Below, in pieces: positions 900-63,935 of a stretch of DNA of 64,000 nucleotides. Below the pieces are notes generated by a model that was given only the letters and a program-made list of their open reading frames with translations, was not told where the DNA came from and did no database searches. Origin of the DNA: Sipunculus nudus. Taxonomy: Eukaryota > Annelida > Sipuncula > Golfingiida > Sipunculidae. Position numbers and translations under genes: made by a program. Location of the stretch: contig CM049309.1 in NCBI GenBank assembly GCA_026874595.1, forward strand, positions 25,485,033 to 25,549,032, in the 5' to 3' direction. Numbering within the stretch: position 1 is the stretch's first letter; each line of letters begins with the position of its first letter.

Positions 900-1564
900 A
901 TGGTCGTAAAATCTCATTTTAAAAAAATTGCTCATATCTCAGGAGTGAATCAATTTATTGGTCTGAAATTTGGCATATACATCCTTCTTGGAGAGTTTTC
1001 TTACAGACAAGACAGGTGGTGCCATCTTCCTTCCCTTTTACTTAAAATACATTAATGCCCTTTTCACAGGAGTGACTTGCTGTAATGGCCTGAAATTGTG
1101 CATGTCTATAGATCTTATATACCTCCATCTTGTATTCAAGACTGGTGGCGCCATCAGCAATTTTTTTTATGGTGCATCCATCTGTCTGTTTGCTTTAAGA
1201 AAAATCACCCATATCTGAGGAGTGGATGGATATATCAGCCAGAAATTTTGGCATGTTTAACCGTCTTGGAAAGCTTTGTTGTAGACCAAACAGGTGGCAC
1301 CACCTGCTGTTCTGTTTTTATAGAATACATTGTTGCAATTTTCTCGGTTAGTGGAATTGGTGTCTCAGCCTGAAATCTTGCATGGTGTATCCATCAGTGA
1401 TCTGTTTTTGGTAAAAATTGCACATGTATGAAGAATTTAAATGGCAACACTCATGCCACAAATTTGAAGTCATGTCGTGTCAGGAACATTCCATTCATTA
1501 TTTTACCCATGCCTCTGTATTATGGCAGATACAAGTAGTCGCTTGTCCACTACCCGTATTCTAG
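900..1564 (+). mobile_element. Degenerate F1 Helentron-like element (3' end intact)
   Basis: The last 50 bases match the F1 3' terminus well: GGCAGATACAAGTAGTCGCT, then TGTCCACTACCCGTATTCTAG, followed by host TTTT. Upstream are decayed F1 internal units, recognisable from phrases such as CTCATATCTCAGGAGTG, GACAGGTGGTGCCATC (about 1011) and ACTGGTGGCGCCATCAGC (about 1141). No 5' terminus (TGTATCCGCC) is visible, so the copy is truncated or heavily mutated. It is more diverged than the other four F1 copies and is probably the oldest. Confidence 0.65.
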
Positions 1565-1875
1565 TTTTAAGGGTACTTCTAAAAGCTGGAATAAAAATAT
1601 TACAAGAGCTTAAAAGATTACAATACCTTATTAGCACTTTGTTGACATGTACACATGAGGAACAAATCTTGAGATACTGGTACCATCATTATGAGTGACA
1701 GTTCAAAGTTCTTCCATGTCAGAGACCAGTTATTGATTTCAACATCAGGTTAACTGATTCCATCAAATGGTTAATAATCACATTAAACAGGTTATTAAGA
1801 TATAAACCTTTGACAATAACTGTAACTGTATTACAAGATTTTTGTTGATTGCAAGTGTCCATCAGGCTGCTGTCA
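1565..1875. other. Unassigned AT-rich interval
   Basis: Nothing I can support between the F1 3' end and the F2 5' end. Confidence 0.4.
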
Positions 1876-4800
1876 TTTTTAGCGAACCTGTGAGCTTATG
1901 CGATGGTGTGGCGTCATCTGGCGTCCGTCGGCCGTCGTCTGTTGTCCGGCGTCTGTACGTTAACCCATACTATCTTTAAAACGGCAAGAGGTAGCATCAC
2001 GAAATTTTATGCAAAACATTAGTCATCTAAAAAACTCGGATTTTGCTTATTTTTTGGCTAACTGCATTTTCTTAGATTTTATAGGGAAAAAGCTAAAAAA
2101 GCTTTAAAAATCTTCTCCTCCGAAACTGTTCAGCCAAATTGTCCAATATTTCACAGAAATGATTCCTGGAATAATCTTTCTCAAGTTTGTTCGAATGGTT
2201 TAAGTTTGGTGATTTTTAGCCGAGTTAGAGGAAGTTGAACTTAGTCATCTGTCCATAAAAGCATACTTAAATTACAATCTCAGAAACAGCTGGAGCTATC
2301 ATCACCAAATTTTATGCCAATGTTGTTCACATGAGACATATCTGAAATTGAGGTATTGGTGGCGCCACCTGCATCGGCCTTTTTTGTAAGGGGGTCACCA
2401 GTGCCGGTATTATACTGACAGCTACAAAAAACTTCTTCTCTGAAACCATATGGCCAAATAGTTTAATATCGCACAGAAATGATCCTAGGGTAGTGCTTTC
2501 TGAACTTTGTTAAAATGGTCTCAGATCAGTGACTTTTGGCTGAGTTATGGGAAGCTGAATTTAGTCATTTGCTGTAACAGCCCATTTTTGCTCAGTGGCT
2601 ACAAGGATCTTCTCCTCAAAAACCACTGGGCCAAATTCTTAAATCTCACACATTAATTATCCTTAGATGTTGATAATTCAAGTTTGTTCAAATGGTTTTG
2701 GTTCAGTGATTTTTGGCTGAGTTATGGGAAGCTTAACTTAGCCATTTTGCTGTATTTTCCCATATGAGTTATAAACCTGTAAGAATTTGTTGTTTAATTT
2801 GTTTAATATTTTACAAGAAAAATCCCCTGAATAATTCTTATAATAATTGTCTTTTATGGATCCAAAGAATGAATTTTGGCTGAATTATAAAGATTCAATT
2901 GAGTCATTTTACCATATATGTTAGCTGTGTGAAGCAGATACATCTAGACTGGCACCAGTTTATCAGCATTCATTACATCATGCCTCTAGACATTTAGATT
3001 TCAGGTTATCTATGGTTAATATTGACAAGAATGTTTTTAAAAGATTTTAAAAAATGTAGATTTATGATTTTTAGATATTCCTCATGCCAGGCAACGTTTA
3101 CAATCACAGGTATACAGCTCTCTATGGGTATATAAAGACGGCTGTACATGGATTATAAATAATTGGTATCCATAGTCATATTAATTCAAGATTTTGTCAT
3201 CAGTGAGAAGTATCTGTATTACAGTTTTGCATTCAATATGCATCTGAATTAATTTTTAGTTAACCTGTGAGCTAATGTGATGGTATGACAGCGTTTGTCT
3301 TCTGTACGTTAACCCATACTATTTTGAAAATGATTGGAGCTAGCATCATGAAATTTAATGCAAAAAATTAGCCATCTGAAAATTTTCTTAAATTTTATAG
3401 AGAAAAAGCTAAAACGACCATTAAAAATCTTCTCCTCCAAAACACTCAAGCCAAATTGTTCAGTATTTCACAGAAATAATCTTTTATACCATCTTCCTAA
3501 ATTTTGTTCCAATTGTTCAAGTTTGGTGAATTTTGGCCGAGTTACAGAAATTGAACTTAGTCATCTGTCCAAAAAAGCGTACTAAAATGACAGTCTCAGA
3601 AACGGCCAGAGCTATCATCACCAAATTTTTGCCAGTGTTGGTCACATGAGTCATATATGAAATTCAGGTATTGGTGGCACCACCTGGAATGCCTTTTTTT
3701 TGTACGGGGGTCATTGGTCATCTGTACATTAATCCATAATTTCTCAGGAAAAGTAGGAGCTACCATTCCCAGATTTTATGCAATAATCTGTCACATATCA
3801 AATTTTGTGGGATTCAGCTTATTTTTTTGCTATCTGCATTTACTTAGATTTTATAGGGAAAAAGCTTCTTGTAGACGGTCCAGCCAAATTGTTCAGTATT
3901 TTACATAAATGATCCCAGAGGCAAGCCCTCTCAAGTTTGTTCAAATGGTTTGCATTTGATGAATTTTAGTGGAGTTACACAAATTTGAACAGTCATTTGG
4001 CCAAGTAAGCATACTGACATAGTACTCTTAGAAATGACAGAAGCTAGCATTACCAGGTATTGTGCAAATGTTGGTCACATGACTCATATTTAAAATTGCA
4101 GATTTTGTGGTGCCACCTACATTGACCTGTTTTCTATGGGCAAAAAACCTCCTAATATTAGCCTCTTTCAGCTTGATGAAACTGTCAAGTTGAATTGTTC
4201 AATTTTTCAAAAGAATTATCCTAGGACATGGTTCTTTCAATCATATCAGAATATACTGAGTTTGTTGATTTTTGGTTGAGTTGTGAAAAGCTTAAGTTGG
4301 TCTTATGGCCATTATTATGTCTTTTTGAAACTGAGGACTGCAGTAGTGTTCTTCTACAAAATTATTATTTATATTATATCTTCTGTAACATTGCACAAAA
4401 ATTATTCTTAGGTGGCCTTTGTTCAAGTTTACTGGAATGATTTTTGGCAGAACTATTGGACCTTTAACAATGAAAGTACTGCATCTTTTATTATTCTAGA
4501 TATTTTGATAAAAAGTTTATGAATATGTCGGCTTGAAACAAAACAAAATTTAGCCAAAGTCTTTCAGTATGTGTAAACAGATATACCAACAAGCCAAGAT
4601 TGAATCCGTATCTTTCAATAGGTTGAGAAACTGCCAACTGTTTCAGATTTGGGAACAGATCAAGAGTTCATTCAGTGCAGCCAGATATAGGTCAAGAGTT
4701 CAATCAGTGCAGCCAAGCACATGGCATGTGATCACCTCATGGGTGACATGTGAACACCTCATGGGCACCATGTGATCACTTCATGGGTGTCAAGCCCCTC

Positions 4801-4975
4801 AGGGCATGGCCCCTGCATGAGCTTATGCAATGGTGTGGCTACTATTTCAGATTTGGCAACAGGCTAGAGGTCAGTCTGGATTTATTTATAGCTTTGGCAG
4901 ACTTTCAACTGTGTCAAATTATGCAACAGGTCAAGAGTTCACTCAGTGCAGCCAGGTACAGGTCAAAGCCCATCT
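1876..4975 (+). mobile_element. F2 Helentron-like element, copy 1, 3'-truncated
   Basis: Begins at a T-run followed by AGCGAACCTGTGAGCTTATG and then the GTCC/GTCT-rich tract (about 1915-1955) typical of these families. It carries GGTGGCGCCACC at 2358-2369 after a phrase resembling the F1 and F4 core (ATCTCAGAAACAGCTGGAGC). A second, diverged 5'-like start at about 3256 (TTAGTTAACCTGTGAGC) shows internal tandem duplication of a roughly 1.35-kb block. The whole segment is collinear, with indels, with 18812-21480. The family's 3' end (seen at 21988-22016) is missing here, so this copy is truncated near 4975. Confidence 0.75.
4650..4975. repeat. Degenerate ~32-bp repeats inside F2
   Basis: Repeated phrases CAGGTCAAGAGTTCACTCAG and TGCAGCCAGGTA recur at irregular spacing. 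They are mixed with short inverted variants of CATGTGATCACCTCATGGG (about 4724-4790). The same block is present, longer, at 21070-21560 in F2 copy 2. Confidence 0.7.
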
Positions 4976-6327: not shown

Positions 6328-9300
6328 CTATTAGGGCAGGAAGTGTGTTAGGGCAGGAAGCAGGAAGTGTGTTAGGGCAGGGAGTGTGTTAGGGCAGGGA
6401 GTGTGTTAGGGCAGGGTGTGTTAGGGTAGGGAGTGTGTTAGGGCAGGGAGTGTGTTAGGGCAGGGAGTGTTAGGGCAGGGAGTGTTAGGGCAGGGAGTGT
6501 GTTCGGGCAGGGAGTGTGTTAGGGCAGGAAGTGTGTCAGGGCAGGGAGTGTGTTAGGGCAGGAAGTGTGTTAGGGCAGGGAGTGTGTTAGGGTAGGAAGC
6601 AGGAAGTGTGTTAGGGCAGGAAGTGTGTTAGGGCAGGGAGTGTTAGGGCAGGGAGTGTTAGGGCAGGGAGTGTGTTAGGGCAGGAAGTGTGTTAGGGCAG
6701 GAAGTGTGTTAGGGCAGGAAGTGTGTTAGGGCAGGGAGTGTTAGGGCAGGGAGTGTTAGGGCAGGGAGTGTGTTAGGGCAGGGAGTGTTAGGGCAGGGAG
6801 TGTGTTAGGGCAGGGAGTGTGTTAGGGCAGGGAGTGTGTTCAGGCAGGGAGTGTGTTAGGGCAGGAAGTGTGTTAGGGCAGGAAGTGTGTTAGGGCAGGA
6901 AGTGTGTTAGGTCAGGGAGTGTGTTAGGGCAGGGAGTGTGTTAGGGCAGGAAGTGTGTTAGGGCAGGAAGCAGGAAGTGTGTTAGGGCAGGGAGAGTGTA
7001 AGGGCAGGAAGCAGGAAGTGTGTTAGGGCAGGGAGTGTGTTAGGGCAGGGAGTGTGTTAGGGCAGGAAGTGTGTTAGGGCAGGAAGCAGGAAGTGTGTTA
7101 GGGCAGGGAGTGTGTTAGGGCAGGAAGTGTGTTAGGGCAGGGAGTGTGTTAGGGCAGGGAGTGTGTTAGGGCAGGGAGTGTGTTAGGGCAGGGAGTGTGT
7201 TAGGGCAGGAAGTGTGTTAGGGCAGGATGGAGGAAGTGTGTTAGGGCAGGGAGTGTGTTAGGGCAGGAAGCAGGAAGTGTGTTAGGGCAGGAAGTGAGTT
7301 AGGGCAGGGAGTGTGTTAGGGCAGGGAATGTGTTAGGGCAGGAAGTGTGTTAGGGCAGGGAGTGTGTTAGGGCAGGAAGCAGGAAGTGTGTTAGGGCAGG
7401 GAGTGTGTTAGGGCAGGAAGCAGGAAGTTTGTTCGGGCAGGGAATGTGTTAGGGCAGGAAGTGTGTTAGGGCAGGGAGTGTTAGGGCAGGGAGTGTGTTA
7501 GGGCAGGAAGTGTGTTAGGGCAGGAAGCAGGAAGTGTGTTAGGGCAGGAAGTGTGTTAGGGCAGGGAGTGTTAGGGCAGGGATTGTTAGGGCAGGGAGTG
7601 TGTAAGGGCAGGGAGTGTTAGGGCAGGGAGTGTGTTAGGGCATCGAGTGTGTTAGGGCAGGAAGTGTGTTCGGGCAGGGAGTGTGTTAGGGCAGGGAGTG
7701 TGTTAGGGCAGGGAGTGTGTTAGGGCAGGGAGTGTGTTAGGGCAGGAAGCAGGAAGTGTGTTAGGGCAGGAAGTGTGTTAGGGCAGGGAGTGTTAGGGCA
7801 GGGAGTGTTAGGGCAGGGAGTGTGTTAGGGCAGGGAGTGTGTTAGGGCAGGAAGCAGGAAGTGTGTTAGGGCAGGAAGTGTGTTAGGGCAGGGAGTGTGT
7901 TAGGGCAGGGAGTGTGTTAGGGCAGGAAGTGTGTTAGGGCAGGAAGCAGGAAGTGTGTTAGGGCAGGGAGAGTGTAAGGGCAGGAAGCAGGAAGTGTGTT
8001 AGGGCAGGGAGTGTGTTAGGGCAGGGAGTGTGTTAGGGCAGGAAGTGTGTTAGGGCAGGAAGCAGGAAGTGTGTTAGGGCAGGGAGTGTGTTAGGGCAGG
8101 AAGTGTGTTAGGGCAGGGAGTGTGTTAGGGCAGGGAGTGTGTTAGGGCAGGGAGTGTGTTAGGGCAGGGAGTGTGTTAGGGCAGGAAGTGTGTTAGGGCA
8201 GGATGGAGGAAGTGTGTTAGGGCAGGGAGTGTGTTAGGGCAGGAAGCAGGAAGTGTGTTAGGGCAGGAAGTGAGTTAGGGCAGGGAGTGTGTTAGGGCAG
8301 GGAATGTGTTAGGGCAGGAAGTGTGTTAGGGCAGGGAGTGTGTTAGGGCAGGAAGCAGGAAGTGTGTTAGGGCAGGGAGTGTGTTAGGGCAGGAAGCAGG
8401 AAGTTTGTTCGGGCAGGGAATGTGTTAGGGCAGGAAGTGTGTTAGGGCAGGGAGTGTTAGGGCAGGGAGTGTGTTAGGGCAGGAAGTGTGTTAGGGCAGG
8501 AAGCAGGAAGTGTGTTAGGGCAGGAAGTGTGTTAGGGCAGGGAGTGTTAGGGCAGGGATTGTTAGGGCAGGGAGTGTGTAAGGGCAGGGAGTGTTAGGGC
8601 AGGGAGTGTGTTAGGGCATCGAGTGTGTTAGGGCAGGAAGTGTGTTCGGGCAGGGAGTGTGTTAGGGCAGGGAGTGTTAGGGCAGGGAGTGTGTTAGGGC
8701 AGGGAGTGTGTTAGGGCAGGAAGCAGGAAGTGTGTTAGGGCAGGAAGTGTGTTAGGGCAGGGAGTGTTAGGGCAGGGAGTGTTAGGGCAGGGAGTGTGTT
8801 AGGGCAGGGAGTGTGTTAGGGCAGGAAGCAGGAAGTGTGTTAGGGCAGGAAGTGTGTTAGGGCAGGGAGTGTGTTAGGGCAGGAAGTGTGTTAGGGCAGG
8901 AAGCAGGAAGTGTGTTAGGGCAGGGAGTGTGTTAGGGCAGGGAGTGTGTTAGGGCAGGGAGTGTGTTAGGGCAGGGAGTGTGTTAGGGCAGGAAGCAGGA
9001 AGTGTGTTAGGGCAGGGAGTGTGTTAGGGCAGGGAGTGTTAGGGCAGGGAGTGTGTTAGGGCAGGGAGTGTGTTAGGGCAGGAAGCAGGAAGTGTGTTAG
9101 GGCAGGAAGTGTGTTAGGGCAGGGAGTGTTAGGGCAGGAAGTGTGTTAGGGCAGGGAGTGTGTTAGGGCAGGGAGTGTGTTAGGGCAGGGAGTGTGTTAG
9201 GGCAGGAAGTGTGTTAGGGCAGGGAGTGTGTTAGGGCAGGGAGTGTGTTAGGGCAGGGAGTGTGTTAGGGCAGGGAGTGTGTTAGGGCAGGAAGCAGGAA

Positions 9301-9816
9301 GTGTGTTAGGGCAGGGAGTGTGTTAGGGCAGGGAGTGTTAGGGCAGGGAGTGTGTTAGGGCAGGGAGTGTGTTAGGGCAGGAAGCAGGAAGTGTGTTAGG
9401 GCAGGAAGTGTGTTAGGGCAGGGAGTGTGTTAGGGCAGGAAGTGTGTTAGGGCAGGAAGCAGGAAGTGTGTTAGGGCAGGGAGTGTGTTAGGGCAGGGAG
9501 TGTTAGGGCAGGGAGTGTGTTAGGGCAGGGAGTGTGTTAGGGCAGGAAGCAGGAAGTGTGTTAGGGCAGGAAGTGTGTTAGGGCAGGGAGTGTTAGGGCA
9601 GGGAGTGTTAGGGCAGGGAGTGTTAGGGCAGGGAGTGTGTTAGGGCAGGGAGTGTGTTAGGGCAGGAAGCAGGAAGTGTGTTAGGGCAGGAAGTGTGTTA
9701 GGGCAGGGAGTGTGTTAGGGCAGGGAGTGTGTTAGGGCAGGAAGCAGGAAGTGTGTTAGGGCAGGGAGTGTGTTAGGGCAGGGAGTGTGTTAGGGCAGGG
9801 AATGTTAGGGCAGGCC
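6328..9816 (+). repeat. 17-bp TTAGGG-containing minisatellite, about 200 units
   Basis: Nearly 3.5 kb of units built on GTGTGTTAGGGCAGGGA (17 bases). The variants are a short form lacking TGT (GTGTTAGGGCAGGGA) and a long form with an added GCAGGAA (AGGAAGCAGGAAGTGTG). Every unit carries TTAGGG, with GGG runs on the + strand only, so the array is extremely strand-asymmetric and two adjacent units hold four GGG runs. Rare marker variants recur about 976 bases apart (GGATGGAGG at 7225 and 8201; GGAGAGTGTA at 6991 and 7967; CATCGAGTG at 7641 and 8618), showing higher-order duplication. It is not a true telomere array because the period is 17, not 6. Confidence 0.95.
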
Positions 9817-11688
9817 TAGCTGTACCTTCCTGCCCTAATTGCAAGGGCCTTTAATATTTACCAACAGATGTCTCCCCTGATGTAAATTCTCATAAAACCC
9901 AAATCATGTATATAATTAGGTCAAAGGTCACAAGATGTGGGATGGGTGTATTATGCACCCTTGTGATGTTCTTTTTCTTATCATGTTATATGTCAAGTTA
10001 TATATTATGTACCCTGCAGATTTTATAATGCAACAAATTCCTTAATTCAGTACCAGAGGCATTGAAAGTTTTGAATAAATGAAAGTTAAACATGTATGAC
10101 TGGATCAGCATTAAAGGACCACCACTGAAGACACTGCTTTCTTCACTGAATAAGATACCCAGAGAAAACCGTAGGCACATGAAATAACAAAGCCATCTCA
10201 TAACATTCCAGGATGGATGTTTTGTTTCAGATTCAAAATCTTTGTTACCTGTTGCAGGGAGGATTTTTTAGAAGTTTTGTTGCTTGGTGCAGGATGTAAA
10301 ATGTCACCATAACAAGCACATCAGAGAAATAAAAAAAGAACATAATAAGACTGGACTAGTGAAGGCCATTATTTCTATGGGTTCTTCTGTAACAAGTTGC
10401 CATCAGAGAAGTGAAAAGGGACTCTGGCTGACTGTGCTAGTGAAGGGTATTCTTACTGTATTTCTCCTTTATCAGGCATCCAATGGAAAAGTAATGTAGC
10501 TCGGGTTTGAAACCTGAGTGGGGACACTGAATGAGGATTAGCAGGAATTGGAAAAAAATCTTGTGCTCGCATTTCTATTCCTTCCCTGAGATCATGCGGC
10601 ATGTGTAATCACCACCTATAGCCACCTCAGTCTCTTTCTTTTGTTTGTGATATTGCCTTTAAGAAGGATGCTGTGGATATATCTCTTCCTACAGGTCTTA
10701 CTTGGTCATCCTATCAGGATGTAGTCAGTGTGAGACCAGGGATGTGGCGGAATGTGTCTGTTAGCATACCTCTCAGTATTGGTGGCTTTACATAGCTGTT
10801 CTGTCTTCTGTTTTGAATGCTGGTGTTTCATTTATTAGACTCCAACACACAATTTTGCTTGTTGCTGAGCCACATAAAAGACCCATTAGAATGTCAAAGA
10901 AACCATTCTGAATGAAGGATAAGAAGTAAAAGACTTGATGGACCTGCCTCAGCAGCCGGCCATTATGCCATGTTTTTACTGGTGGCTGCTTCAGCATTAG
11001 CTTTTATGGACCAGGACTTAACATCCCAGCCTGGTTCTCAGCTGTCATACATTAACATCCTGCTCTTCTTATTTGTGCAGTATTTAAGAATTAGTAAAAT
11101 AAGCAATTCATATATAAAACTTTTTCATATGAGCTTAGTCAGATGACCTTTAAAATCTAATATGGAAATTATTACTCAAAAAGATATTAACAAATTTTGA
11201 TGAAATTTTAAGGATAGCTCAGAAATGATACAAAGAACAATTGACTAAATTTTGGGGGTCTGCTTTCTCTGAGTGCAAATTATTGTTATATATATGTTTA
11301 ACCTGTAAACTCGTATAGAATCTAATTATAAATGAAATATAGAATATATGATATTATATAATACATAGCTTAAAGCAGGTTGCTTTGGATGGAAATAAAC
11401 AAGTTAAATTCACAAATTTTCTAAATGTTTCTTAGGAAATGATATACAGTTGAAATTTTATGGCAATTCAGTGTTTTTTTTATCCATAAGGAATTAAACA
11501 AATCAATTAGTGAAATTAAGAAATACATCACAGTCTAAAGTGTTTGATTCAAAATTATTCTTTGAATAAATTAATTTAGGAGTTGAAATCCATGTGATCA
11601 AATCAAATAACAGGATAAAGTATTGAGTAAAGTTAACCAATTTGGTAGAGATAGCCTGCAGTGTGTCTGATAAGTTAACTAAGTTAAT
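9817..11688. other. Unassigned interval between minisatellite and F1 element
   Basis: An inverted single unit of the preceding array (CTTCCTGCCCTAATT) lies at about 9827-9840. The rest is AT-rich, with a somewhat higher-GC block at 10490-11040. I saw pyrimidine tract plus AG patterns there (for example near 10694), but no exon in a phase consistent with the other candidates. No repeat family recognised. Confidence 0.35.
9918..9930 (+). promoter_or_regulatory. DR1-type nuclear-receptor motif (sequence match only)
   Basis: AGGTCAAAGGTCA is a perfect direct repeat of AGGTCA with one-base spacing, the DR1 form bound by RXR-, HNF4- and COUP-class receptors in animals. Binding here is inference; no promoter is visible nearby. 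Confidence 0.25.
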
Positions 11689-11848
11689 TGTATCCGCCAA
11701 AACAGAGTTTTGCGGATACTATGTTTTCAGCTGCACGCCCCCGCCGCGTAGGTTTCCGGAGAACTCCTCCGTAACCGCTGGGCGGAATTTTACAAAACCC
11801 GGGATTATGTTCGGGTCACATGTGAACTGCTGCGCCCCAATTTTGTTT

Positions 11849-11861
11849 TGACCTCTGACCT
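11849..11861 (-). promoter_or_regulatory. DR1-type motif in F1 copy A
   Basis: TGACCTCTGACCT, the reverse complement of AGGTCAGAGGTCA. The same site is at the equivalent position of the other three well-preserved F1 copies. Function is not shown. Confidence 0.25.
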
Positions 11862-11911
11862 TTCCTCTGCGCTCTGTGTCCGTTTGTGCGTCTGTTTCCA
11901 CACATAAACCC

Positions 11912-13590
11912 ACATATCTCGGGAACCGTTTGACGGATCATGAAATTTTTTTTGCACAAATGTAGCCCTTGGAGAGCTTTATAACATACACAAAAAATGG
12001 TGGCGCCACCTGCAACCATGTTTGCACAGTGTCCATCTGTTCGTCTGCCTTGGGTTAAAATCACTCATATCTCTGCAGTGACTTGACTAATTCACCTGAA
12101 ATTTGGCATGCGTATACATCCTGGATAGCTTTTCTGATTTTGTGACAGGTGGCGCCACCTACATTCACGTTTACGCTGCAGACATCCAATCTCATATCTC
12201 GGGAACCGTTTGACCGATCAGGAAAATTTTTTGCACAAATGTAGCCCTTGGAGAGCTTTATAACATACACAAAAAATGGTGGCTCCACCTGCAACCATGT
12301 TTGCACAGTGTCCATCTGTTCGTCTGCCTTGGGTTAAAATCACTCATATCTCTGCAGTGACTTGACTAATTCACCTGAAATTTGGCATGCGTATACATCC
12401 TGGATAGCTTTTCTGATTTTGTGACAGGTGGCGCCACCTACATTCACGTTTACGCTGCAGACATCCAATCTCATATCTCGGGAACCGTTTGACCGATCAG
12501 GAAAATTTTTTTGGACAAATGTAGCCCTTGGAGAGCTTTATAACATACACAAAAAATGGTGGTGCCACCTGCAACCATGTTTGCACAGTGTCCATCTGTT
12601 TGTCTGCCTTGGGTTAAAATCACTCATATCTCTGCAGTGACTTGACTAATTCACCTGAAATTCGGCATGCGTATACATCCTGGATAGCTTTTCTGATTTT
12701 GTGACAGGTGGCACCACCTACATTCACGTTTACGCTGCAGACATCCAAGCTCATATCTCGGGAACCGTTTGACTGATCAGGAAAATGTTTTTGCACAAAT
12801 GTAGCCCTTGGAAAGCTTTAAAACATACACAAAAAATGGTGGCGCCACCTGCAACCATGTTTGCACAGTGTCCATCTGTTTGTCTGCCTTAGGTTAAAAT
12901 CACTCATATCTCTGCAGTGACTTGACTAATTCACCTGAAATTCGGCATGCGTATACATCCTGGATAGCTTTTCTGATTTTATGACAGGTGGCGCCACCTA
13001 CATTCAGGTTTACGCTGCAGACATCCAAGCTCATATCTTGGGAACCGTTTGACCGATCAGGAAAATTTTTTTGCACAAATGTAGCCCTTGGAAAGCTTTA
13101 TAACATACGCAAAACTGGTGGCGCCACCTACAGCCATTTTTGCACAGCTCCTGTCTGTTTGTCTGCCATGGGATAAAATCACTCATATCTCGGCAGTGGT
13201 TTGACATAACTGCCTAAAATTTTGCTGGTTTATACATCCCCGACAGCTCTCTTGATTTTATGACAGGTGGAGCCACCTGCATTCTAGTTTATGCAGCAGA
13301 CATCCAAGCTCATATCTTGGGAACCGTTTGACCGATTGGGCCAAAGTTTTGCATGTGTATAGTTCTCACATAGCTCTTTATCATACGCAAAACTGGTGCC
13401 GTCACCTGCAACCATTTTTGCTCAGCGTCCATCTGATTGTCTGCCACGGGCTAAAATCACTCATATACATGTAGTGGTTTGACTTATCTGCCTTAACTTT
13501 TGCATATGTATACAACTGGGACGGCTTTCTGGATTTTGTGGTAGGGGGGGCAACCTTCATACACAATTTGGCTGCAGACATCCATGCTAA
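11912..13590 (+). repeat. Six ~280-bp tandem units within F1 copy A
   Basis: The phrase CATATCTCGGGAACCGTTTG recurs at about 11912, 12192, 12471, 12751, 13031 and 13310, a period of 279-280. Each unit contains two GGTGGCGCCACC palindromes (or one-base variants), one about 90 bases after ATCTCGGGAACCG and one about 95 bases after ATCTCTGCAGTG. Each unit is therefore a dimer of two diverged ~140-bp halves. The first units are nearly identical; the last is more diverged. Confidence 0.9.
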
Positions 13591-13703
13591 TATGCAACAC
13601 TTCACTCTGTTTCCCCTTGCCACTTAATCCATGCCTCACTTCACCCGTTCCACTCTATTTTAGGCAGATACACTTAGTCGCTTGTCCACTACCCGTATTC
13701 TAG

Positions 13704-14372: not shown

Positions 14373-14640
14373 GCTGACTGAAAGTCATCTGAGCTATAGG
14401 GATCACTCTTTGTCCTTCATCTGTCTGTCTGTCTGGCTGTCATTCCATCTGTCTGTCCGACTGTCTTAACATGTCTATCCATCTGTCAGTTAACCACGCA
14501 CAAATCGTAACCACCAAAAAATCTCCTTGGAAACCTGAACTTAGATCTCTGTTACCCATATCCTTTAGATTCAGGAGAAACATTTACAAATATAATCTTG
14601 TGGGTAAACAAGGCTAATTGGTAGGTGAGGTATTGTAAAT
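14373..14640 (+). mobile_element. F3 Helentron-like 5' fragment
   Basis: Starts TTAGCTCAGCTGACTGAAAG with ATCTGAGCTATAGG and a CTGTCTGTCTGTC tract, then a phrase shared with the F3 copy at 35430 (ATCTCCTTGGAAACCTGAA). The 3' terminus is absent. Confidence 0.6.
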
Positions 14641-15728: not shown

Positions 15729-15730
15729 TT

Positions 15731-35385: not shown

Positions 35386-35389
<4 letters not shown>

Positions 35390-52320: not shown

Positions 52321-52710
52321 TCTCAAATTAGGAATATATGGTATAATTCAGTCTCAGGGCAGGAATATATGATGTAATTCAATCTGAGAGCAGGAATATA
52401 TGATGTAATTCAACCTTAGAGCAGGAATATATGATGTAATTCAATATGAGAGCAGGAATATATGATGTAATTCAACCTTAGAGCAGGAATATATGATGTA
52501 ATTCATATTTAGAGCAGAAATATAGATAATTCAGTCTCAGACAGGAATATATGATGTAATTCAATCTTTGAGCAGGAATATATGATGTAATTCAACCTTA
52601 GAGCAGGAATGTATGATGTAATTCAACATTAGAGCAGGAATAATTGTTGCAGTCCATACTTAGAGCAGAAAGATAATTCAGACTCAGAGCAAGAATATAT
52701 GATATGTAAT
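52321..52710. repeat. 31-bp minisatellite, left part
   Basis: Units of GAGCAGGAATATATGATGTA plus ATTCAATCTGA or ATTCAACCTTA, with some shortened copies. The array is cut by F1 copy C and resumes at 53824. Confidence 0.92.
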
Positions 52711-53823
52711 TGTATCCGCAAAAACAAAGTTTTGCAAATACTATGTTTTTGACCAGGTTCCTCCGCCGCGGCGGCGTTCGTTTCTGGACTAGAACTCTGA
52801 GATCACTGGACATATTTTTCCGAAACTTTAGAACATTATCAGGTCACATGTGAACTGGTGCCAAAATATTTTGGGTTGACCTCTGACCTTTCCTCTCTCC
52901 ATGCGTCCATCTGTGCGTCTGTTTTGACACATTAACCGATTAGGAATAAAATGTTTGCACAAATATATTTAATATAGCTTTATAACATACATAAAAAATG
53001 GTAGTGCCACCTGCAACCATTTTTGCACAGCATCCATCTGTTCATCTGCCTTGGGATATAATCTCTCATATCTCTGAAATTTTGTATGTGTATACATCCT
53101 GGACAGTTTTCTTGATTTTATGAAAGGTGGCACCACCTACATTCACGTTTACGCTGCAGACATCCAAACTGATATCTAGGGAACCGTTTGACAGATTTGG
53201 CCAAAATTTTGCATTTGTATAGATTTCACATAGCTCTTAATCATAGGCAAAACTGGTGGCGCCACCTGGAACCATTTTTGCACAGCGTCTGTCTGTTTGT
53301 TTGCCATGGGATAAAATCACTCATATCTCTGATTTGGTTTGACTTATCTGCCTTATATTTTGCAGGTTTATACATCTTGGATAGCTTTCTGGATTTTGTG
53401 GCAGGTGGCGCCACCTACATTTATGTTTATGCTGCAGACATCCAGGCTTATATCTCAGAAACCGTTTGACTGGTTGGGCCAAAATTTTGCATGTGTATAG
53501 ATCTCACATATCTCTTTATCATATGCAAAACTGGTGGCGCCACCTGCAACCATTTTTGCAGAGCTTCCGTCTGTTTGTCTGCCATGGGGTAAAATCACTC
53601 ATATCTCGGCTGTGGTTTGACTTTTTGCATTTGTATACAACTTTGACAGCTTTATGGATTTTGTGGTAGGTGGTGCAACCTACATACACATTTCGGCATC
53701 CATGCTTATATGCAACACACCTCACTCTATTTCCCCTTGCCACTCAATCCATGCCTCACTTCACTCGTTCCACTCTGGTTTTGGCAGATACACGTAGTCG
53801 CTTGTCAACTACCAGTATTCAAG
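52711..53823 (+). mobile_element. F1 Helentron-like element, copy C, inside a minisatellite
   Basis: 5' end TGTATCCGCAAAAACAAAG, followed by an inverted partner TTTGCAAATAC. Near the 3' end lie GGCAGATACACGTAGTCGCT, TGTCAACTACCAGTATTCAAG, then host TTC. The interior holds GGTGGCGCCACC at about 53256, 53404 and 53534 and a GGCACCACC variant near 53128. Left flank GATATGTAAT and right flank TTCAGACTTAGAGC rejoin into a normal minisatellite unit, so the insertion junction can be read exactly. Confidence 0.78.
52877..52889 (-). promoter_or_regulatory. DR1-type motif in F1 copy C
   Basis: TGACCTCTGACCT, the same element-borne site as in copies A, B and D. Confidence 0.25.
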
Positions 53824-55695: not shown

Positions 55696-56358
55696 AACTT
55701 TGTGGACTGGAATATTAAACTGGGCAATGTTGAGCATCGTTTGTCCAGAATATTGAAGAAGTTTTTGCTAGGAGTTCAGCCATGTCTGCTTAACATCAGT
55801 GTTTATACAGGGTTATTGATCTTGTAAGATGTACAGGCTGTCCTCCCCTTTAATCTCTGTGATTTTCCAAATTTTTCACCTCTCAGATGCAATGAAAAAC
55901 TTAGTTTAATTTTGCATACACACACAAATGAATGAGTTTTACAAAAGAATTATAATAAAATAACAAAAAAATCAGGTACTTAATGTAGCCCCTGGTCATA
56001 ACCATCTGATGTGTTATTTAATTCCGATGATACATGCATAATCTCAATCCACAGAGTCTGCACAGTAAGTAAGTCCACAGATCTTAACGTTTCTGTCCAT
56101 TCTTGAACTTCCTTTTTTACACTTATGATGGAACCACTCGTTCAGGAACCACTCAAGTCTGTGTCCACACACCAGACATTGATGAGTTACTGGGTCACAG
56201 GACCACATGATTGTAGGTACCTATGGTCATGTGCCATGAATTCCTGGAATAAGTCTGTTCTTATACACTCTACATGTCAAGGTGTCCAGCAAAAGGGAAG
56301 GTTTTTCTTACCATTAAACAGCACTCTAACCATACAATCTCATCAAGCCACACCACTT
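55696..56358. other. Unassigned interval
   Basis: An open + frame from 56125 runs into the F5 element and is not protein-like; nothing else supported. Confidence 0.3.
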
Positions 56359-57525
56359 TTTTATCTAGCCACAAAGTGGCCGGGGCATATAGTTTTACCC
56401 ATGTCCGTCATTCCGTCCTTCCGTCATTCCAAAATCAAACAGTTGTACGGACTTTTTTTCGCAATGCCTGCAGATATTGACCTGATTTTTGTTGTGTGGT
56501 CAGATAATGACCAGTTACAGATCGAGTTCGTGTTTCGTCCCAGTTGACATACTTTTGACCGTTTTACGGCTCCTAAACTTGGAAATTTCATGAAAAATAT
56601 AAATTATCATGACAAATACACATGTACGGACTTTTTATCGCAGTGCCTGCAGGTATTGGCCTGATTTTTGGTGTGTGGGCAGTCTATAATGATGACTAGT
56701 TACAGATCGAGTTCACATTTTACCCCAGTTGACCTTCTTTTGACCGTTTGACAGTGCCCTAACACAGAAAATTTCATAAAAAATATAAATTTTCATGACA
56801 AGTGCACAAGTACGGACATTTTTCGCAATGCCTGTAGATACGGGCCTGATTTTTTGTGTGTGGGCAGATAATGACCAGTTACAGATTGAGTTTTTGTTTT
56901 GTCCCAGTTGACCTACTTTTGATTTTTTACGGCTCCTGAACATAGAAAATTTCATGAAAAATATAAATTTTCATGACAGATGTACATGTACAGCCGTTTT
57001 TAGCCCTCAGCTCGTAGGCTGATGGGCTATTGTTGTCACCCAAGCTGTCCGTCTGTCGTGCTGTCTGTCTGTCCATCCGGCGTCTGTCCGTCCCGCGTCT
57101 GTTAACTTTTACCTTGTGAGCGGGATATCTCTAAAAGGATTCACCGTTGGAATTTTATTTCATCAATGAAGATGTATATCGATAAAATTTCGGTCAAGTT
57201 TGAAGATGGGTGACCTTGACCCATTTTCATATATTTTAGAGCTGATTATAGAAAAACACTCAGAAGCTTATATCTCAGGAACCATTGTATGGATTTTCAC
57301 AAAACTTACTATGATCATTGGGACTGATGGTCTGTACATGCTGCACAGTTTTGGTGGCGCCACCTGCAATTTCTGATTTTTTAATCAATTTTTATCGGAT
57401 TTTTCAATTTTGGTCTTGTGAGTGGGATATCTCTAAAAGGATTCACCGTTGGAATTTTATTTCATCAGTGAAGATGTATATCATCAAAATCTTGGTCAAG
57501 TGCAAAGATGGGTGACCTTGACCTA

Positions 57526-59412
57526 TTTTTAGCTCAGCTGACTATAAGTCATCTGAGCTATAGTCGTGGTCCATTGTCCGTCGTCCGTCCGTCTGTCCGT
57601 CCGTCCGTCCGTCCGTCCGTAGATGTGGCACGTTTTGAAACCGTAAGACCTAGGAATCCAAAATTCAGCATAATGTTAGATGTCCCCAAGATCTCCTACC
57701 AAACCGAAAACTGGGTCTTTGCGACTTCGTTCCTTTGAGAAATTAAGGAAAAACCTCAATTTTTTATTAAAATCCTATTTTCACACTTCTGGACTGCCTA
57801 ATATCAAAACCACTCATCTGTTTTTCCTCATATTTACCATAAATATTCCTCTATATAGTTCCTATGTACATCCCAGAAATTAAGTCTGTAAAGTATAATT
57901 TCTTTAAGTTATGGGCCCAAACATAATGGACTTTGTAAAAAATCAGGAAAAATAATAACTCACTTAACATGAAAAATTTTGAAACTAGAGTCTATTTTCT
58001 CAAGTATATAACTATGTTTAATTAAGATTCAATTGTTTACCCAGAATTAGATCTGAATTTTGTAAATTTTTTAAGTTATTAGCATAAAAAAAAATCAGTA
58101 CCTTAAATTTTGCCCAACTTTGACCATGGCACGTTTTTTTCCTGTAAGCACCATTGATTAAATTTTCATAGCATGTAAACATAAATATTTAGTTTGTCTA
58201 AATCTGAAATTTGAAAATAAAAGCTTGAAAATTAAGCTAGTTATTGATTTTTTTTTCTGTAGTCACTTGCTTTGATTACAGATGCAGGGTCCCACTCCAG
58301 GTCACTGGAAGTCAGCTATGCCAGGGTTTCTGATTTGTTACAGTCACTGGGGGAGATCCCCTGCTGTGACAGGTGTACAGTTATTCTCATATCATCACCC
58401 CCCCCCCCCCCCCCCCCGTAAACCCAACCCACCAAGTGTTATGCAGTAATTGTTATTGTTTTCACTGTATTTCCTAAATTGTAATGCAGTTTCACTCAGA
58501 TATGCAAAAACTTTCCTTGAAAAAATAATTCAAGGTGTAATCCAGAAGATGCAATGTTGTGTAATGTAACATTTTTAAAGAAATCAATTTTCTTTTAAAT
58601 GATTTTAACAAATATAACCCATCAGTATGCTTAAATTATGATAAAATATGAAGCACATTATGGATAAATAAAGACCCAATTAAAAATTGTCAAATCTATA
58701 TCAAGTATTATTTTTAGATATTGATTGTTTTGCAGATTTAAAAGATGTATTTTTGTGGTAAAAAATAAATAAACATTTGTATGGATGATGTGGTGTTATC
58801 TAACAAGATTGAGATTTATGATGATGCAATTGAGAATTATGAATCAACTTTTATATTCAGATATATATGTTAAATTGGAAATGTATAGAAATATAAACTT
58901 AAACTAGAAAATAATTGATGTGATAAAAAATCAGGATTTAATACAAACAATATGTTCATTATTTTCCTGCCTCAGCAGAATTTGAGATCAGGCTTTGTTT
59001 GCCCTGTTTTATGTTGTTAATTAGCTATATTTCAACTGTATACATTTCATAAAAAAAATACATATATATTTAATAATATATATTATACAAAAAAATAGAT
59101 TCAATTGAACAAATGTGTAAACTACTGAAATGTCAACAGTTAATCGAAAAACCAACTAATGATCATGGTAATAGTACAGATCATTTTTTCACAAACTGCT
59201 CACATGCTTTAGTTTCAACATTAGGAAACACATGGCCAGGTCACAAAATATTTTTTGCAACAATTTCTTGCTCATCAATACAAACCAATCATATAAACCA
59301 ACCATGGCCTTTATTACCTCTTCCTCTTACACTTTATCTCCATTAGATATTATTTTAGATTTTTACCTTCAAGGTTAATGTCAGCTGAGCACAGTGACCC
59401 ATAGGTCCCTTG
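57526..59412 (+). mobile_element. F3 Helentron-like element, copy v, inserted in F4
   Basis: 5' end TTTTTAGCTCAGCTGACTAT and a (GTCC)n tract at about 57577-57620; 3' end TCAGCTGAGCACAGTGACCC, ATAGGTCCCTTG then T. The left body is very close to copy iii (27024). The right half, from about 58262, is copy-specific and includes poly-C (about 18) at 58399. The F4 text ACCTATTTTT ... TTTTAGAGCTGATTATA resumes on either side. Confidence 0.78.
58282..58382 (+). pseudogene. Exon-like GC-rich segment, probably captured by F3 copy v
   Basis: The acceptor-like TTGCTTTGATTACAG precedes about 100 bases open in one frame (starting MQGPTPGHWKSAMPGFLICY) and ends ACAG/GTGTAC, a plausible donor. GC is far above the surrounding element. 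It occupies the same relative position as the unrelated inserts at 16474 and 28465 in other F3 copies. Source gene unknown. Confidence 0.3.
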
Positions 59413-59939
59413 TTCTTTGTTTTAGAGCTGATTATACAAAAACACTTAGAAGCTTATATCTCAGGAACCATTTGGTGGATTGTTATGAAACATGGTACAT
59501 ACCTCTCCTATTTAAATTTATAACTTATTATCAGCTTTTGCTAATATTCTAGTTTCGCAATGCGATGCTTACAGATACTGGCCTAATGTTTGGTCTGTGG
59601 GGGCATAATGACCACTTATAGATAGAGTTCGCGTTTCGTCCCAGTTGACCTATTTTTGACCAAATGACAGATCCTGAACATAGAAAATTTCATGAAAGAC
59701 AGAAATTTTTATGAAAAATGCACATGTATGGACTTTTTTTCCACAATGCCTGCAGATACTGGCCTGATTTTTGGTGTGTTGCTTGATAATGACCCGTTAC
59801 AGATCGAGTTTGCATTTTGCCCTTGTTGACCTACTTTTGACCATATGACACCTCCTGAACTTAAAAAATTTTACAAAATTCAACAAATGTTTCTAATTTG
59901 CCCCAGGCGGGGGCATTCATGTCGTTCCAACACATCTAG

Positions 59940-60508
59940 TTTCACAGTATTTATGGTGTAGGACATTCTTTTGATGTATTTACAATGAACACATAGCTCC
60001 ATGTGTATATATAGCCTAGAGTTAACCTGAGCTGCTCGTCTCATCAGCCTTTACATACTGAAACAAACAACAACAGAAGGCTGTACTGAACTGCATCAAT
60101 GCTAGGTAAAATTCCAGCTAAATTGTCCCAGTTCTTAGTATAAATACTCCCAATAACCATATATATCTGCATGTACATGCTTATAGTCTTTGTATTCAAC
60201 TAAACACGATTCAGAACGGTTTTGAATAAAAAGGTAGTTTTGCTAAGTGTGGGAACACTTGCTATCTAACACCTGCATGTCTTTGATATGCTGTTTACCC
60301 CATGAATATTCATTATATGAATATATTACATTAGGACTTTTATGACACATAATGCCACACATTTTATTAAATGAACAGTAAGAATGAATGTATGAATGAT
60401 AGATGAAAAATCAGGTCTGGAAGTACCTGGACTAAAACTTGTCTTTGCATTTTCATTGTATCTAGCACAAAATAAACAATAATTTCCTTTTACTATTGCC
60501 ATCATAAT
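59940..60508. other. AT-rich interval, no supported feature
   Basis: Nothing recognised between the F5 3' end and the F1 5' end. Confidence 0.35.
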
Positions 60509-61677
60509 TGTATCCGCCAAAACATAGTTTATGACCGGGTTCCGCTGCCGCAGCGTTTGTTTCCGGAGAACTCCTCTGAGACTACTGGACGGATTTTTCC
60601 GAAACTTACACAAATTATCAGGTTACATGTGAACTGGTGCCTAACCAAGTGACCTTGACCTCTGACCTTTCCTCTCTGCCCAGCTTCTGTTTGTGCGTCT
60701 GTTTCCACACATAAACCCACATATCTCGGGAACCGTTTGACCGATCAGGAAAAAAAAATTACACAAATGTAGCCCTGGGATGGTTTTATAACATACACAA
60801 AAAAGGTGGCGCCACCGGCAACCATGTTTGTACAGTGTCCATCTGTTCATCTGCCTTGGGTTAAAATCACTCATATCTCTGCAGTGGTTTGACTAATTCA
60901 CCTAAAATTCGGCATGCTTATACATCCTAGATAGCTTTCTTGATTTTTTGATAGGTGGCGCCACCTACATTCACGTTAACGCTGTAGACATCCATTCGTA
61001 TATCTCCGGACTCGTTCAACCAATCAGGAAAAAATTTTTACACAAATGTAGCCCTGGGATAGCTTTATAACATCCACAAAAATGGTGGCGCCACCTGCAG
61101 CCATTTTTGCACAGCGTCCATCTGTTTGTCTGCCTTTGGTTAAAATCACTCATATCTCTGCAGTGGTTTGACCAAATTACCTGTAATTTGGCATGTCTAT
61201 ACATCCTGGATAGCTTTCATGATTTTATGACAGGTGGCGCAATTAAGCTTCATTCATGTTCATGCTGCAGACATTAATGCTAATATCTCCGGAACCGTTT
61301 GACCAATCAGGAAAAAAAATTTTACACAAATGTACCCCTTGGATAGCTTTATAACATACACAAAAATGGTGGCACCACCTGCAGCCATTTTTGCACAGCG
61401 TCCATCTGTTTGTCTGCTGTGGGATAAAATCACTCAAATCTCTGCAGTGGTTTGACTTTTCCACATGAAATTTTGCATGTGTATACATCTTGGATAGTTT
61501 GTCGTTCAAATAACAGGTGGCTCCACCTACAATCATGTTTATGTGGCAGAGACCCATTCTAATATGTAACACATGTAACTCTATTTCCCCTTGCCACTTA
61601 ATCCATGCCTCACTTCACCCGTCCTTCTCTGATTTTGGCGGATACATGTAGTCGCTTGTCGACTACCCGTATTCTAG
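60509..61677 (+). mobile_element. F1 Helentron-like element, copy D, full length
   Basis: 5' end TGTATCCGCCAAAACATAG. The 3' end has the exact inverted partner TTTTGGCGGATAC, the hairpin TAGTCGCTTGTCGACTA and the terminus CCCGTATTCTAG followed by host TT. Best-preserved 3' hairpin of the family (stem AGTCG/CGACT). Three GGTGGCGCCACC palindromes (about 60805, 60955, 61085) lie within about two internal units. Non-coding. Confidence 0.8.
60656..60668 (-). promoter_or_regulatory. DR1-type motif in F1 copy D
   Basis: TGACCTCTGACCT, preceded by a further half-site (GTGACCT); the same position as in the other F1 copies. Confidence 0.25.
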
Positions 61678-62890
61678 TTACTACATATTGGTATTTGTGT
61701 ACTGATAGTCATTAATTGTTACAAGTTAAGAGTCAGTGGATTCTATCCCATTTGTGAATGTGTTCCCTACTGAAATTTATGAATTACCTATGTCTGGTGA
61801 TAATTAAAAATTAAAATAAAAACAGAAAGTTGGTTTTGATATATACATATACAAGGGAAAGCTAGTTAAAGTCCATACCATATCAGTACATGCTGAAAGA
61901 TCAATCAGAAACCAAACTAAAAGATAAGACAGGCAATTCGTTACTGAAACTAGTTTTCATTCAAAAATTATCAAATTATATTGAGTGGTTTGTGCATGCA
62001 GCTGTTAAAAAAGGATCACTAGGGCAATATTGGTGGAGCAGATTGTCAGCTGTGGTGACAAAACATGATGATTCAGTAATTCATCATGGAAGTCCTGTCC
62101 TACATTTTCCTAGAAGAAGATAATGTTAGAAATTGGAGTAGGCTGGTTTTATCATATGAGAATTAATTGTTGTGTGGTTGTTAGATGATCTGGAGAAGTC
62201 CTTAAACATTTTTGCTTCACTCTGTTCACTGTCACACTTGCAGCTTCAGATGAACAACATGGATGTTGTTCCCTTTTGAACGTCACAGTATACATTCCAG
62301 GTCAGCTTTCCAGCAAAGCTACAATTTCCAGTTTAATGTCCCACAACATTTCATGTTTTGTGATGACCATTTAGGTTACACATACAAGCTGAACATGAAA
62401 ACAGATTTATTACTACTTAGGAATATTTCAAGATTATTTTTTGTATTTTTATCCAGACTGACTGAACAATTTTTCTGATTTTTTTTTCTTTTCCTTATGA
62501 CGCTTCTATCCTATAATTATCAAACTTCTATTTCAGCTAGGTCACTAACACTGTCAGTGCTTTCTAAATTGTTTGACATGTTCTGCATATAGACTTAAAG
62601 ATAATTCTGTATAATAAATCTGGATTGAAATTAACTGAAAATTTTCATGTGGTGAAAATGCTGCTTATGGTCATAATTTTCATCTGGCATGAATCTGTGA
62701 ATGACCTCTCTTTTTTTAAAGCATGAAGAAATTGATATACACAGAATACCTAAATGTGATTCTGGACTTTAGACTGATACCATGGAGACCACAACTGGTA
62801 TGTCTGACAGTTATAATGAACCAATATTACAGCTGAAGTATAATCATTTGCTACCATGGCTTCCAAAGGAGCTTCCATGTAGCAAGTACC
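61678..62890. other. Single-copy-looking interval
   Basis: No transposon termini. It holds the protein-like frame at 61887-62123. The stretch after 62123 is AT-rich and could be its 3' flank or unrelated. Confidence 0.35.
61887..62123 (+). CDS. Weak candidate exon or small ORF (78 codons)
   Basis: The frame is open from an AG at 61885-61886 (CATATCAG/TAC ATG) to TAA, starting YMLKDQSETKLKDKTGNSLL and ending HHGSPVLHFPRRR. Composition is balanced and lysine-rich, with a WW pair, unlike the low-complexity frames elsewhere. The ATG at 61890 could be a start, but no promoter is recognisable. It lies outside every repeat I identified. Entry would be phase 0, not the phase 2 needed after exon E. 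No family recognised. Confidence 0.22.
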   Translation, partial: YMLKDQSETKLKDKTGNSLLKLVFIQKLSNYIEWFVHAAVKKGSLGQYWWSRLSAVVTKHDDSVIHHGSPVLHFPRRR

Positions 62891-63935
62891 TTTTTAGCCC
62901 TCAGCCCTTAGGCTGATGGGCTATTGTCATCACCCAAGCTGTCCGTCCATCCATCCATCGTCTGTCCGTCGGTCCGTCCGGCGTCCGTTAACTTTTACCT
63001 TGTGAGCGGGATATCTTGAAAAGGATTCACCGTCAGAATTTTATTTCCTCGGTAAAGATGTATATTGACAAAATCGAAGATGGGTGACCTTGACCTATTT
63101 TTCTACATTTTAGAGCTGATTATAGAAAAACACTTAGATGCTTATTACTCAGGAACCATTTGTTGGATTTTCACAAAACTTACTATGATTATTGGGACTG
63201 ATAGTCTGTACCTGCTACACAAGTTTGGTGGCGCCACCTACAATTTCTGATTTTTAATGAATTTTTATCGGATTTTTCAACTTTGGGCTTGTGAGCGGGA
63301 TAACTCTAAAAGGATTTAATGTAGGAATTTTATTTTTTTGGTGAAGATGTATATTGACAAAATCTCGATCAAGTTCGAAGATGGGTGACCTTGACCTTTT
63401 TTTCTACGTTTTAGAGCTGATTATAGAAAAAACATTTAGAAGCTTATTTCTCAGGAACCATTGGGTAGATTTTCACAACACTTACTATGATCATAGGGAC
63501 TGATGGTCTGTAACTGCTGCACAAGTTTGGGGGCGCCACCTACAATTTCTGATTTTTAATGAATTTTTTCTTAAATTTTTCAACTTTGGCCTTGTGAGCA
63601 GGATATCTCTAAAAGGATTCACAAATGGATTTTTATTTCTTTGGTGAAGATGTATATCGACAAAATCTCGGTCAAGTTCGAAGATGTGTGACCTTGACCT
63701 TCTTTTCAAGGTCACAGAGCTTGTTATAGAATAAAACTTAGAAGCTTATTTTTCAGGAAGCATTTGGTGGATTGTTATGAATCATGGTACATACCTCTCC
63801 ATTTTAAATTTATAACTGAGACATGTACGGATATACATCCATGTGAGAACAGATATTTAGTACTTGTTACTGTTACCACCTCTAAACACTGTTCTTTTGG
63901 CTGAGGTCTTTTGTCAGCTTCTGCTGATATTCTAG
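62891..63935 (+). mobile_element. F4 Helentron-like element, copy 2, full length
   Basis: 5' end TTTTTAGCCCTCAGCCCTTA, then CCATCCATCCATCGTCTGTCC and GTCGGTCCGTCCGGCGTCC. Two to three tandem body units repeat GTGAGCGGGATATCTTGAAA, GGTGACCTTGACC and ACTCAGGAACCATTTG; GGTGGCGCCACC is at 63227-63238 and GGGGGCGCCACC near 63529. At the 3' end the subterminal GGCTGAGG (partner of CCTCAGCC) is followed by the hairpin TCAGCTTCTGCTGA and the terminus TATTCTAG with host TT. Confidence 0.78.

Follow-up and report, generated by a model that had tools for sequence, protein, structure and literature searches.

Five families of Helentron-derived repeats in Sipunculus nudus, two of which share their ends with coding Helentrons

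Does one helicase mobilize several families of rolling-circle repeats, or does each family depend on an enzyme of its own? The question is raised by a 64,000-nucleotide stretch of the Sipunculus nudus genome (the window; C4:25485033-25549032 of a 1.43-Gb assembly of 153 contigs), in which self-comparison showed five repeat families, F1-F5. A preliminary description had proposed that a single trans-acting helicase mobilizes the whole set. The analysis supports F1-F5 as five separate families of Helentron-associated interspersed elements (HINEs), that is, non-coding, non-autonomous derivatives (parasites) of Helentron rolling-circle transposons. The assembly holds coding Helentrons with the ends of F3 and of F5, and each family probably follows a Helentron lineage of its own.

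Architecture and termini of F1-F5

The five families share one plan: a family-specific 5′ motif with an inverted copy close to the 3′ end, a 3′ palindrome, and CTAG or CTTG followed by TT. Their ends are given below (^, element border).

F1: TT^GTATCCGCCAAAAC ... TTTTGGCGGATACA, palindrome GTAGTC..GACTAC, CTAG^TT
F2: TTTTT^AGCGAACCTGTG ... CACAGGTTCGC, AGGCCTGTAGGCCT, CTTG^TT
F3: TTTTT^AGCTCAGCTGA ... TCAGCTGAGC, GACCCATGGGTC, CTTG or CTAG^TT
F4: TTTTT^AGCCCTCAGCC ... GGCTGAGG, CAGCTTCTGCTG, CTAG^TT
F5: TTTTT^ATGCCCCCGCCAC ... GCGGGGGCAT, GTGTCGTTCCGACAC, CTAG^TT (clean form from the coding element K5, described below; the window copy is mutated)

The F5 motif, for which the preliminary description gave none, was defined from window positions 56363-59939 and a full-length relative. 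The 5′ motif has an exact inverted partner at the 3′ end in each family, with lengths of 14, 11, 10, 8, and 10 bp in F1 to F5, respectively; matches between families reach only 3-7 bp. No shuffled end out of 500 attained the observed length for F1, F2, F3, or F5, and 9 of 500 did so for F4, whose 8-bp partner is the weakest of the five. These tests and the hairpin tests used one sequence per family and end, and hairpin z-scores are relative to mononucleotide shuffles. The 3′ palindrome is present by sequence in all five families and is more stable than shuffles in F1 (z -3.2) and F4 (z -2.4), but not in F2 (z -1.1), F3 (z +1.1), or F5 (z -1.1). Among 15 hand-chosen distinct F3 3′ ends (13 from Helentron loci and 2 from listed HINE ends), 98.3% of the palindrome cells pair, and one stem pair is altered on both sides in seven sequences. 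Two of five covariation measures fail against shuffles (both-side changes, 387/500; further pair types, 500/500), and the seven compensatory cells may represent one inherited change.

The tract of GTCC/GTCT (GTCY) near the 5′ end is family-dependent. Within the first 200 bp, it is above shuffles (under 5%) in four of five F3 copies and both F4 copies, and in no copy of F1 (0/4), F2 (0/3), or F5 (0/1); the F1 copies have one site each, against a shuffle mean of 1.8-2.4. The plan originally ascribed to all five families holds for T-rich insertion, the inverted 5′/3′ partners (exact over 8-14 bp), and the CTAG/CTTG termini before TT (one window copy reads CAAG), but the GTCY tract stands out in F3 and F4 alone, and the hairpin placed after the inverted partner, present as a palindrome throughout, exceeds shuffles in stability only in F1 and F4. 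The proposed Helentron association is borne out by the ends, by T-rich insertion without a longer duplication, and by Rep/helicase elements of this assembly that share these ends. Neither of the outcomes named in the preliminary description as refuting was observed: no duplication beyond ambiguous T's was found, and the ends coincide with CTAG/CTTG and the T-run.

A feature absent from the earlier list is a strong 5′ hairpin in F1, F3, F4, and F5 (z -5.9 to -7.2); the F2 5′ end has no hairpin above shuffles (z +0.8).

Coding Helentrons with the ends of F3 and F5

A genome search for the Rep domain PF14214 gave at least 143 matches, some of them two per locus, with 150 of 195 candidates scored; none of the matches listed lies in the window. 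The 3′ side of 42 Rep loci was examined for HINE ends. By best protein match, 25 loci fall in the H3/H4/H5 lineage (for L046, L053, and L054, identity is only 42-64%) and nine in the H1 lineage; the others are K5, the ambiguous L021, and six without a protein match in the fetched tail (L026, L038, L055, L056, L057, and L059), none of which has a same-strand F3 3′ end. L021 was left aside, as what remains of its coding sequence lies on the opposite strand from its Rep. A same-strand F3 3′ end lies downstream of 20 of the 25 H3-lineage loci and of none of the nine H1-lineage loci (Fisher 3.8e-5). The search of the assembly for Rep/helicase Helentrons with matching termini, suggested in the preliminary description, yielded one element with both ends for F3 and one for F5.

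C17:35625479-35640361, minus strand: H3, 14,883 bp, with both F3 ends, a GTCY tract, and a 2,342-aa frame
C3:41766495-41778497, minus strand: K5, 12,003 bp, with both F5 ends, the 5′ hairpin, and 179-bp F5-type repeats; lies in an F2 copy

The H3 frame contains a Herpes_teg_N-type peptidase, DUF6570, Helitron_like_N, PIF1, and a weak Exo_endo_phos match. K5 encodes Rep in a 964-aa frame and a PIF1 helicase in an 877-aa frame that also gives a weak endonuclease match; with Rep and helicase on separate frames, it may no longer be intact. PF14214 (Rep) and PF05970 (PIF1) exceed their cut-offs in H3 and, on the two frames, in K5. The C-terminal endonuclease of H1 is over the cut-off (50.1 bits), and this region of H1 aligns into K5. 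The K5 and H3 proteins are ~33% identical (1,150 aa), and HINEs and partners are 78-100% identical over short end segments. On these sequence comparisons, F3-H3 and F5-K5 are supported as cognate HINE-Helentron pairs, involving two different Helentrons in one genome.

Several points weigh against this assignment. Matching ends are no proof of mobilization. An F1 is nested in H3, and a further F3-type 5′ end lies 0.7 kb inward of the outer one, so that the exact 5′ border of H3 could be either; the 5′ end of H5 was not found in the stretch fetched. The Exo_endo_phos match is below the Pfam cut-off in H3 (20.5 versus 24.5 bits) and K5 (19 bits). Five H3-lineage loci have no F3 end (H4, L034, L036, L046, and L047; the windows of L036 and L046 end in or near the coding region), and the H1-lineage tails were searched over unequal lengths, from 1.0 to 15 kb. 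The F5 partner is a single element, and no partner of F1 or F4 was found among the 42 Rep loci. For F2, the broken H1-like element K2 on C3 is a weak candidate: an F2 3′ end lies 2.3 kb past its last coding match (helicase), a gap that means the end may belong to something else. L056 has an F2-like 3′ motif and no protein match. On contig C1, comparison by eye of the listed end positions with the Rep positions gave no pair.

No 3′ end of an H1-lineage element was recognized up to ~15 kb after the frame, where the sequence is mostly repeat array, and these Helentrons may be very long. The tails of H1 (G000 C11:50366400-50380899), H2 (C8:80144101-80156600), L019, and L020 run for >10 kb of satellite-rich sequence with no recognizable 3′ end. 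The deubiquitinase-type domains differ by lineage, being a herpes-tegument-like peptidase in H3 (L008:803-7828) and H4 (L010) and OTU in H1 (L004) and K2 (L051). Two H5-type Helentrons, at C7:70980080 and C7:71189229 (L054 and H5), have the same 3′ flank and thus probably reflect a segmental duplication, not two insertions.

Copies in the window and their insertion sites

The window contains the following copies and parts.

11688-13703, plus strand: F1 copy; TT^GTATCCGCCAAAAC, 5′ hairpin, 280-bp internal repeats, 3′ inverted partner, palindrome, CTAG
52710-53823, plus strand: F1 copy within a 31-bp tandem array, a natural empty site; 3′ end CAAG
60508-61677, plus strand: F1 copy; 279-bp internal repeats
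40026-42427, minus strand: F1 copy; 5′ end at 42427, 3′ CTAG end at 40026, paired by position
1093-1564, plus strand: F1 3′ part
18812-22016, plus strand: F2 copy; TTTTT^AGCGAACCTGTG ... CACAGGTTCGC, AGGCCTGTAGGCCT, CTTG^TT
1876-4966, plus strand: F2 5′ part and body; 3′ end not found
31516-32579, plus strand: F2 5′ part, diverged
15730-17621, plus strand: F3 copy; TTTTT^AGCT(C/A)AGCTGA hairpin ... TCAGCTGAGC, GACCCATGGGTC, CTTG^TT
27024-29655, plus strand: F3 copy; GTCY tract at ~27074-27134, ends paired by position
57526-59412, plus strand: F3 copy nested within F4
35430-35837, plus strand: F3-type 5′ module; of all window matches to the H3 (autonomous) 5′ end, the longest
14363-14564, plus strand: F3-type 5′ module
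39087-39118, plus strand: F3 3′ end
39260-39291, plus strand: F3 3′ end, CTAG variant
62891-63935, plus strand: F4 copy; TTTTT^AGCCCTCAGCC hairpin ... GGCTGAGG, CAGCTTCTGCTG palindrome, ATATTCTAG^TT
56997-59552, plus strand: F4 copy nested in F5, interrupted by F3
56357-59939, plus strand: F5 copy, outermost of the F5[F4[F3]] nest; 179-bp repeats, 3′ TCGTTCCAACACATCTAG^TT

The elements insert into T's, and the site is lengthened by about two bases net, with no longer duplication. The F1 copy at 52710 interrupts an array of 31-bp units reading GTAATTCA; the filled site is GTAATT^GTATCC...CAAG^TTCA, and its junction is two bases longer than every array unit aligned. For the F3 copy at 57526 in F4, the joined flanks exceed the unit at 63077 (CTATTTTTCTAC) by exactly TT. 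Against the seven-T unit at 63344 the excess is again two bases, but here the gap falls on the neighboring TA, so the T count is unchanged. The joined flanks of the F4 copy at 56997 in F5 are two bases longer in the T-run than most F5 units among the alignments listed (at least 25), these units being variable with other indels nearby. The F2 copy that hosts K5 has relatives reading TTATTTTTTGGC; compared with their 6 T's, the filled site shows 5 + 3 and one G fewer, hence a net gain of two T's or of one base. No target duplication longer than the ambiguous T's was seen in the empty sites compared or in 900 sampled ends (500 5′ and 400 3′). The simplest reading is that the element bears one T at each end and is inserted between T and T.

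A nearly invariant T at position -5

Flank statistics are based on the 100 copies listed first for each pattern, all of them on contig C1, with 3′ flanks sampled for F1, F2, F4, and F5. The distinct 5′ flanks number 47 for F3, 47 for F5, 54 for F1, 60 for F2, and 28/49 (CCTT type) and 11/51 (TCAT type) for F4; the 3′ sets hold 78-92. Five bases before the element body (position -5), a T was found in 100/100 F1, 97/100 F2, 99/100 F3, and 95/100 F5 copies. It was found in 91/100 F4 copies, comprising 48/49 of the CCTT type and 43/51 of the TCAT type, the latter mostly from one nested, amplified context. The background frequency of T at -5 given TT is 0.33 (0.31 where the site is not TTTT), and a near-invariant T at this level points to register-specific target choice. 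Flanks other than a plain TTTTT make a more stringent test: among F1 copies with such a flank, T occupies -5 in 81/81 (52/52 distinct; binomial 7e-27). The corresponding counts are 23/26 for F2, 18/19 for F3, 4/5 for CCTT-type F4, and 15/20 for F5, giving a pooled 141/151; some of these non-F1 flanks are T-runs with an interruption at -1 or -2 and weigh less. The non-TTTTT flanks of TCAT-type F4 (T at -5 in 1/9) were kept outside the pool as non-independent. At -3, F1 has A in 73/100, and T is found in 83/100 F2, 86/100 F3, 91/100 F5, and 47/49 CCTT-type F4 copies. A general A at -6 was considered and dropped (F1, 60/100; F3, 61/100; F5, 53/100; yet F2, 34/100, and CCTT-type F4, 4/49).

We lean toward the view that target reading during Helentron integration follows a fixed register, T-N-N-T^T, in which the T at -5 is nearly obligatory, with a further preference at -3/-4 specific to each endonuclease lineage (A at -3 for F1, T for F2-F5). 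If so, the insertion-site logo would be a fingerprint by which orphan HINE families could be matched to their enzyme, and indiscriminate cleavage of poly-T would be the wrong model. The rule leads to a sharp prediction about the Helentron endonuclease; a part for this enzyme in target choice has so far only been proposed (relevant passages of PMC4067079). It was not found in the relevant passages of PMC4067079, PMC7492417, PMC9741609, or PMC10294476.

Proposed mechanism and alternatives

Here, we propose that each family has retained the terminal recognition sequences of a single Helentron lineage, whose Rep-helicase(-endonuclease) copies it in trans, a reading to which we give a probability of roughly 85% on the present sequence evidence. 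Rep would recognize the family-specific 5′ motif, and displaced-strand synthesis would end at the 3′ inverted partner and palindrome. An AP-like (apurinic/apyrimidinic-type) endonuclease would nick the T-rich target in the register T-N-N-T^T, yielding the T at -5. Satellite-like repeats of the interior, and elements nested there, would be carried along as passengers.

The single helicase of the preliminary description fits the order of parts and the T at -5 common to all five families, and no partner of F1 or F4 was found among the Rep loci examined. We nevertheless consider one Helentron for all five improbable: F3 and F5 have their own Helentrons, ~33% identical in protein, the inverted repeats match within families only, and the preference of F1 for A at -3 departs from the T (83-91/100) of F2, F3, and F5. 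Cross-mobilization of F1, F2, or F4 may still occur. Canonical Helitrons likewise have Rep and a PIF1 helicase and a CTAG-like 3′ end after a palindrome; their insertion site is A^T. The T^T insertion, the inverted 5′/3′ ends, and the C-terminal endonuclease over the cut-off in H1 leave this identity with almost no probability.

The ends could also be those of cut-and-paste elements resembling miniature inverted-repeat transposable elements, with a 2-bp TT target duplication. Such elements would give the same difference of about two bases between empty and filled sites, and they predict the similar frequencies of A at -1 (12/500) and +2 (13/400). Under duplication, however, -1 must copy +2, and C occurs at +2 in 15/400 ends (F1, F2, F4, and F5) but at -1 in 1/500 (five families; Fisher 4e-5, the copies not all being independent). 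This asymmetry disfavors duplication, the A counts being uninformative, and the presence of the same ends on Rep/helicase elements makes it very unlikely. As to the register itself, the T at -5 might belong to the element instead of the target: a run of exactly five T's before the body is modal in F3 (65/100) and F5 (63/100), and Thomas 2014 counts the flanking T's, variable in number, as element (relevant passages of PMC4067079). Yet T at -5 is already in the target at all three readable empty sites (F1 in the array, F3 in F4, and K5 in F2), and -4 and -3 vary among copies of one family where -5 does not, even in F1 flanks other than TTTTT. An element-borne T at -5 is thus unlikely, and we retain the target register.

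Comparison with known elements

These are new families of a known kind of element, with two supported cognate pairs and one unexpected target-site regularity. With two families tied to two different Helentrons in one genome, the question of one helicase or many becomes testable. HINEs have been defined, and the same plan described, in mites, flies, and oyster (relevant passages of PMC4067079 and PMC7492417). Cg_HINE of Crassostrea gigas (Vojvoda Zeljko 2020, passages of PMC7492417) is alike in its subterminal inverted repeat, adjacent 5′ inverted repeat, central tandem repeats, and 3′ palindrome, in T-rich insertion without duplication, and, in several, in a GTCY-type microsatellite. F1 is without GTCY, unlike several Cg_HINE; the microsatellite is not in all known HINEs. 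A Helentron-type Rep motif 2 is also named in PMC7492417. That study could relate none of ten autonomous oyster Helentrons to its HINEs, whereas two such ties, each through a coding element with the same ends, are found here. The derivation of DINE-1 and HINE-Mo from Rep/helicase/endonuclease Helentrons, with T-T insertion and T's at both ends (Thomas 2014, passages of PMC4067079), agrees with our findings. Those passages propose indiscriminate cleavage between T's of poly-T, in contrast to the fixed T at -5 of all five families, and leave open the sharing of T's between element ends; they give 84-99.9% HINE-partner identity in mite pairs, against 78-100% over the short end segments compared here. 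The herpes-tegument-like domain of H3 and H4 is in line with deubiquitinase domains of this type reported in Helentrons of several animal groups, including molluscs (passages of PMC9741609). The cognate pairs are not stated in the relevant passages of PMC4067079 and PMC7492417, and those of PMC10294476 hold no further information on HINE partners.

Pearl elements of bivalves, reportedly the subject of Gaffney 2003, are alike in their described layout of tandem core repeats between asymmetric ends. They are mentioned in the passages of PMC7492417.

Abundance and composite elements

Exact terminal patterns, whose counts are lower bounds, occur genome-wide 4,213 (5′) and 2,670 (3′) times for F1, 2,579 and 2,317 for F2, 17,535 and 8,823 for F3, 2,023 and 1,056 for F4, and 1,734 and 1,309 for F5. 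Reversed-pattern controls gave 0 matches for all ten patterns.

On C1, 32 of 51 TCAT-type F4 5′ ends have F5 nearby on the same strand, either its 5′ end no more than 2 kb upstream or its 3′ end no more than 3 kb downstream, against 1 of 49 of the CCTT type (Fisher 9e-12) and 0/100 in the other-strand control. This proximity indicates that an F5 carrying an F4 piece spread as a unit, and the nest at 56357-59939 looks like one copy of this F5[F4] composite plus a later F3 insertion. The swapping of interiors suggested in the preliminary description is thus seen in one form, F4 nested in F5, and the composite is one route by which HINE interiors change.

Other C1 flanks hint at similar units. 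The flank GTATTTTT is common to 18/100 F1 5′ ends, suggesting another amplified composite holding F1, and TATTTTTC to 7/100 F4 3′ ends, suggesting a larger amplified unit. Some F4 and F2 3′ ends appear to abut the 5′ end of another element via common T's (CTTGTTTAGCGA, CTAGTTTAGCTC); such junctions, judged by the first 6-8 bases, make up 6/200 of the listed F4/F2 3′ ends. The window also contains a 59-bp satellite at 42881-48870 (101 copies, 96% alike) and, at 6331-9814, an array of ~196 copies of a 17-bp unit (TTAGGGCAGGGAGTGTG), in which a 75-bp period was detected as well.

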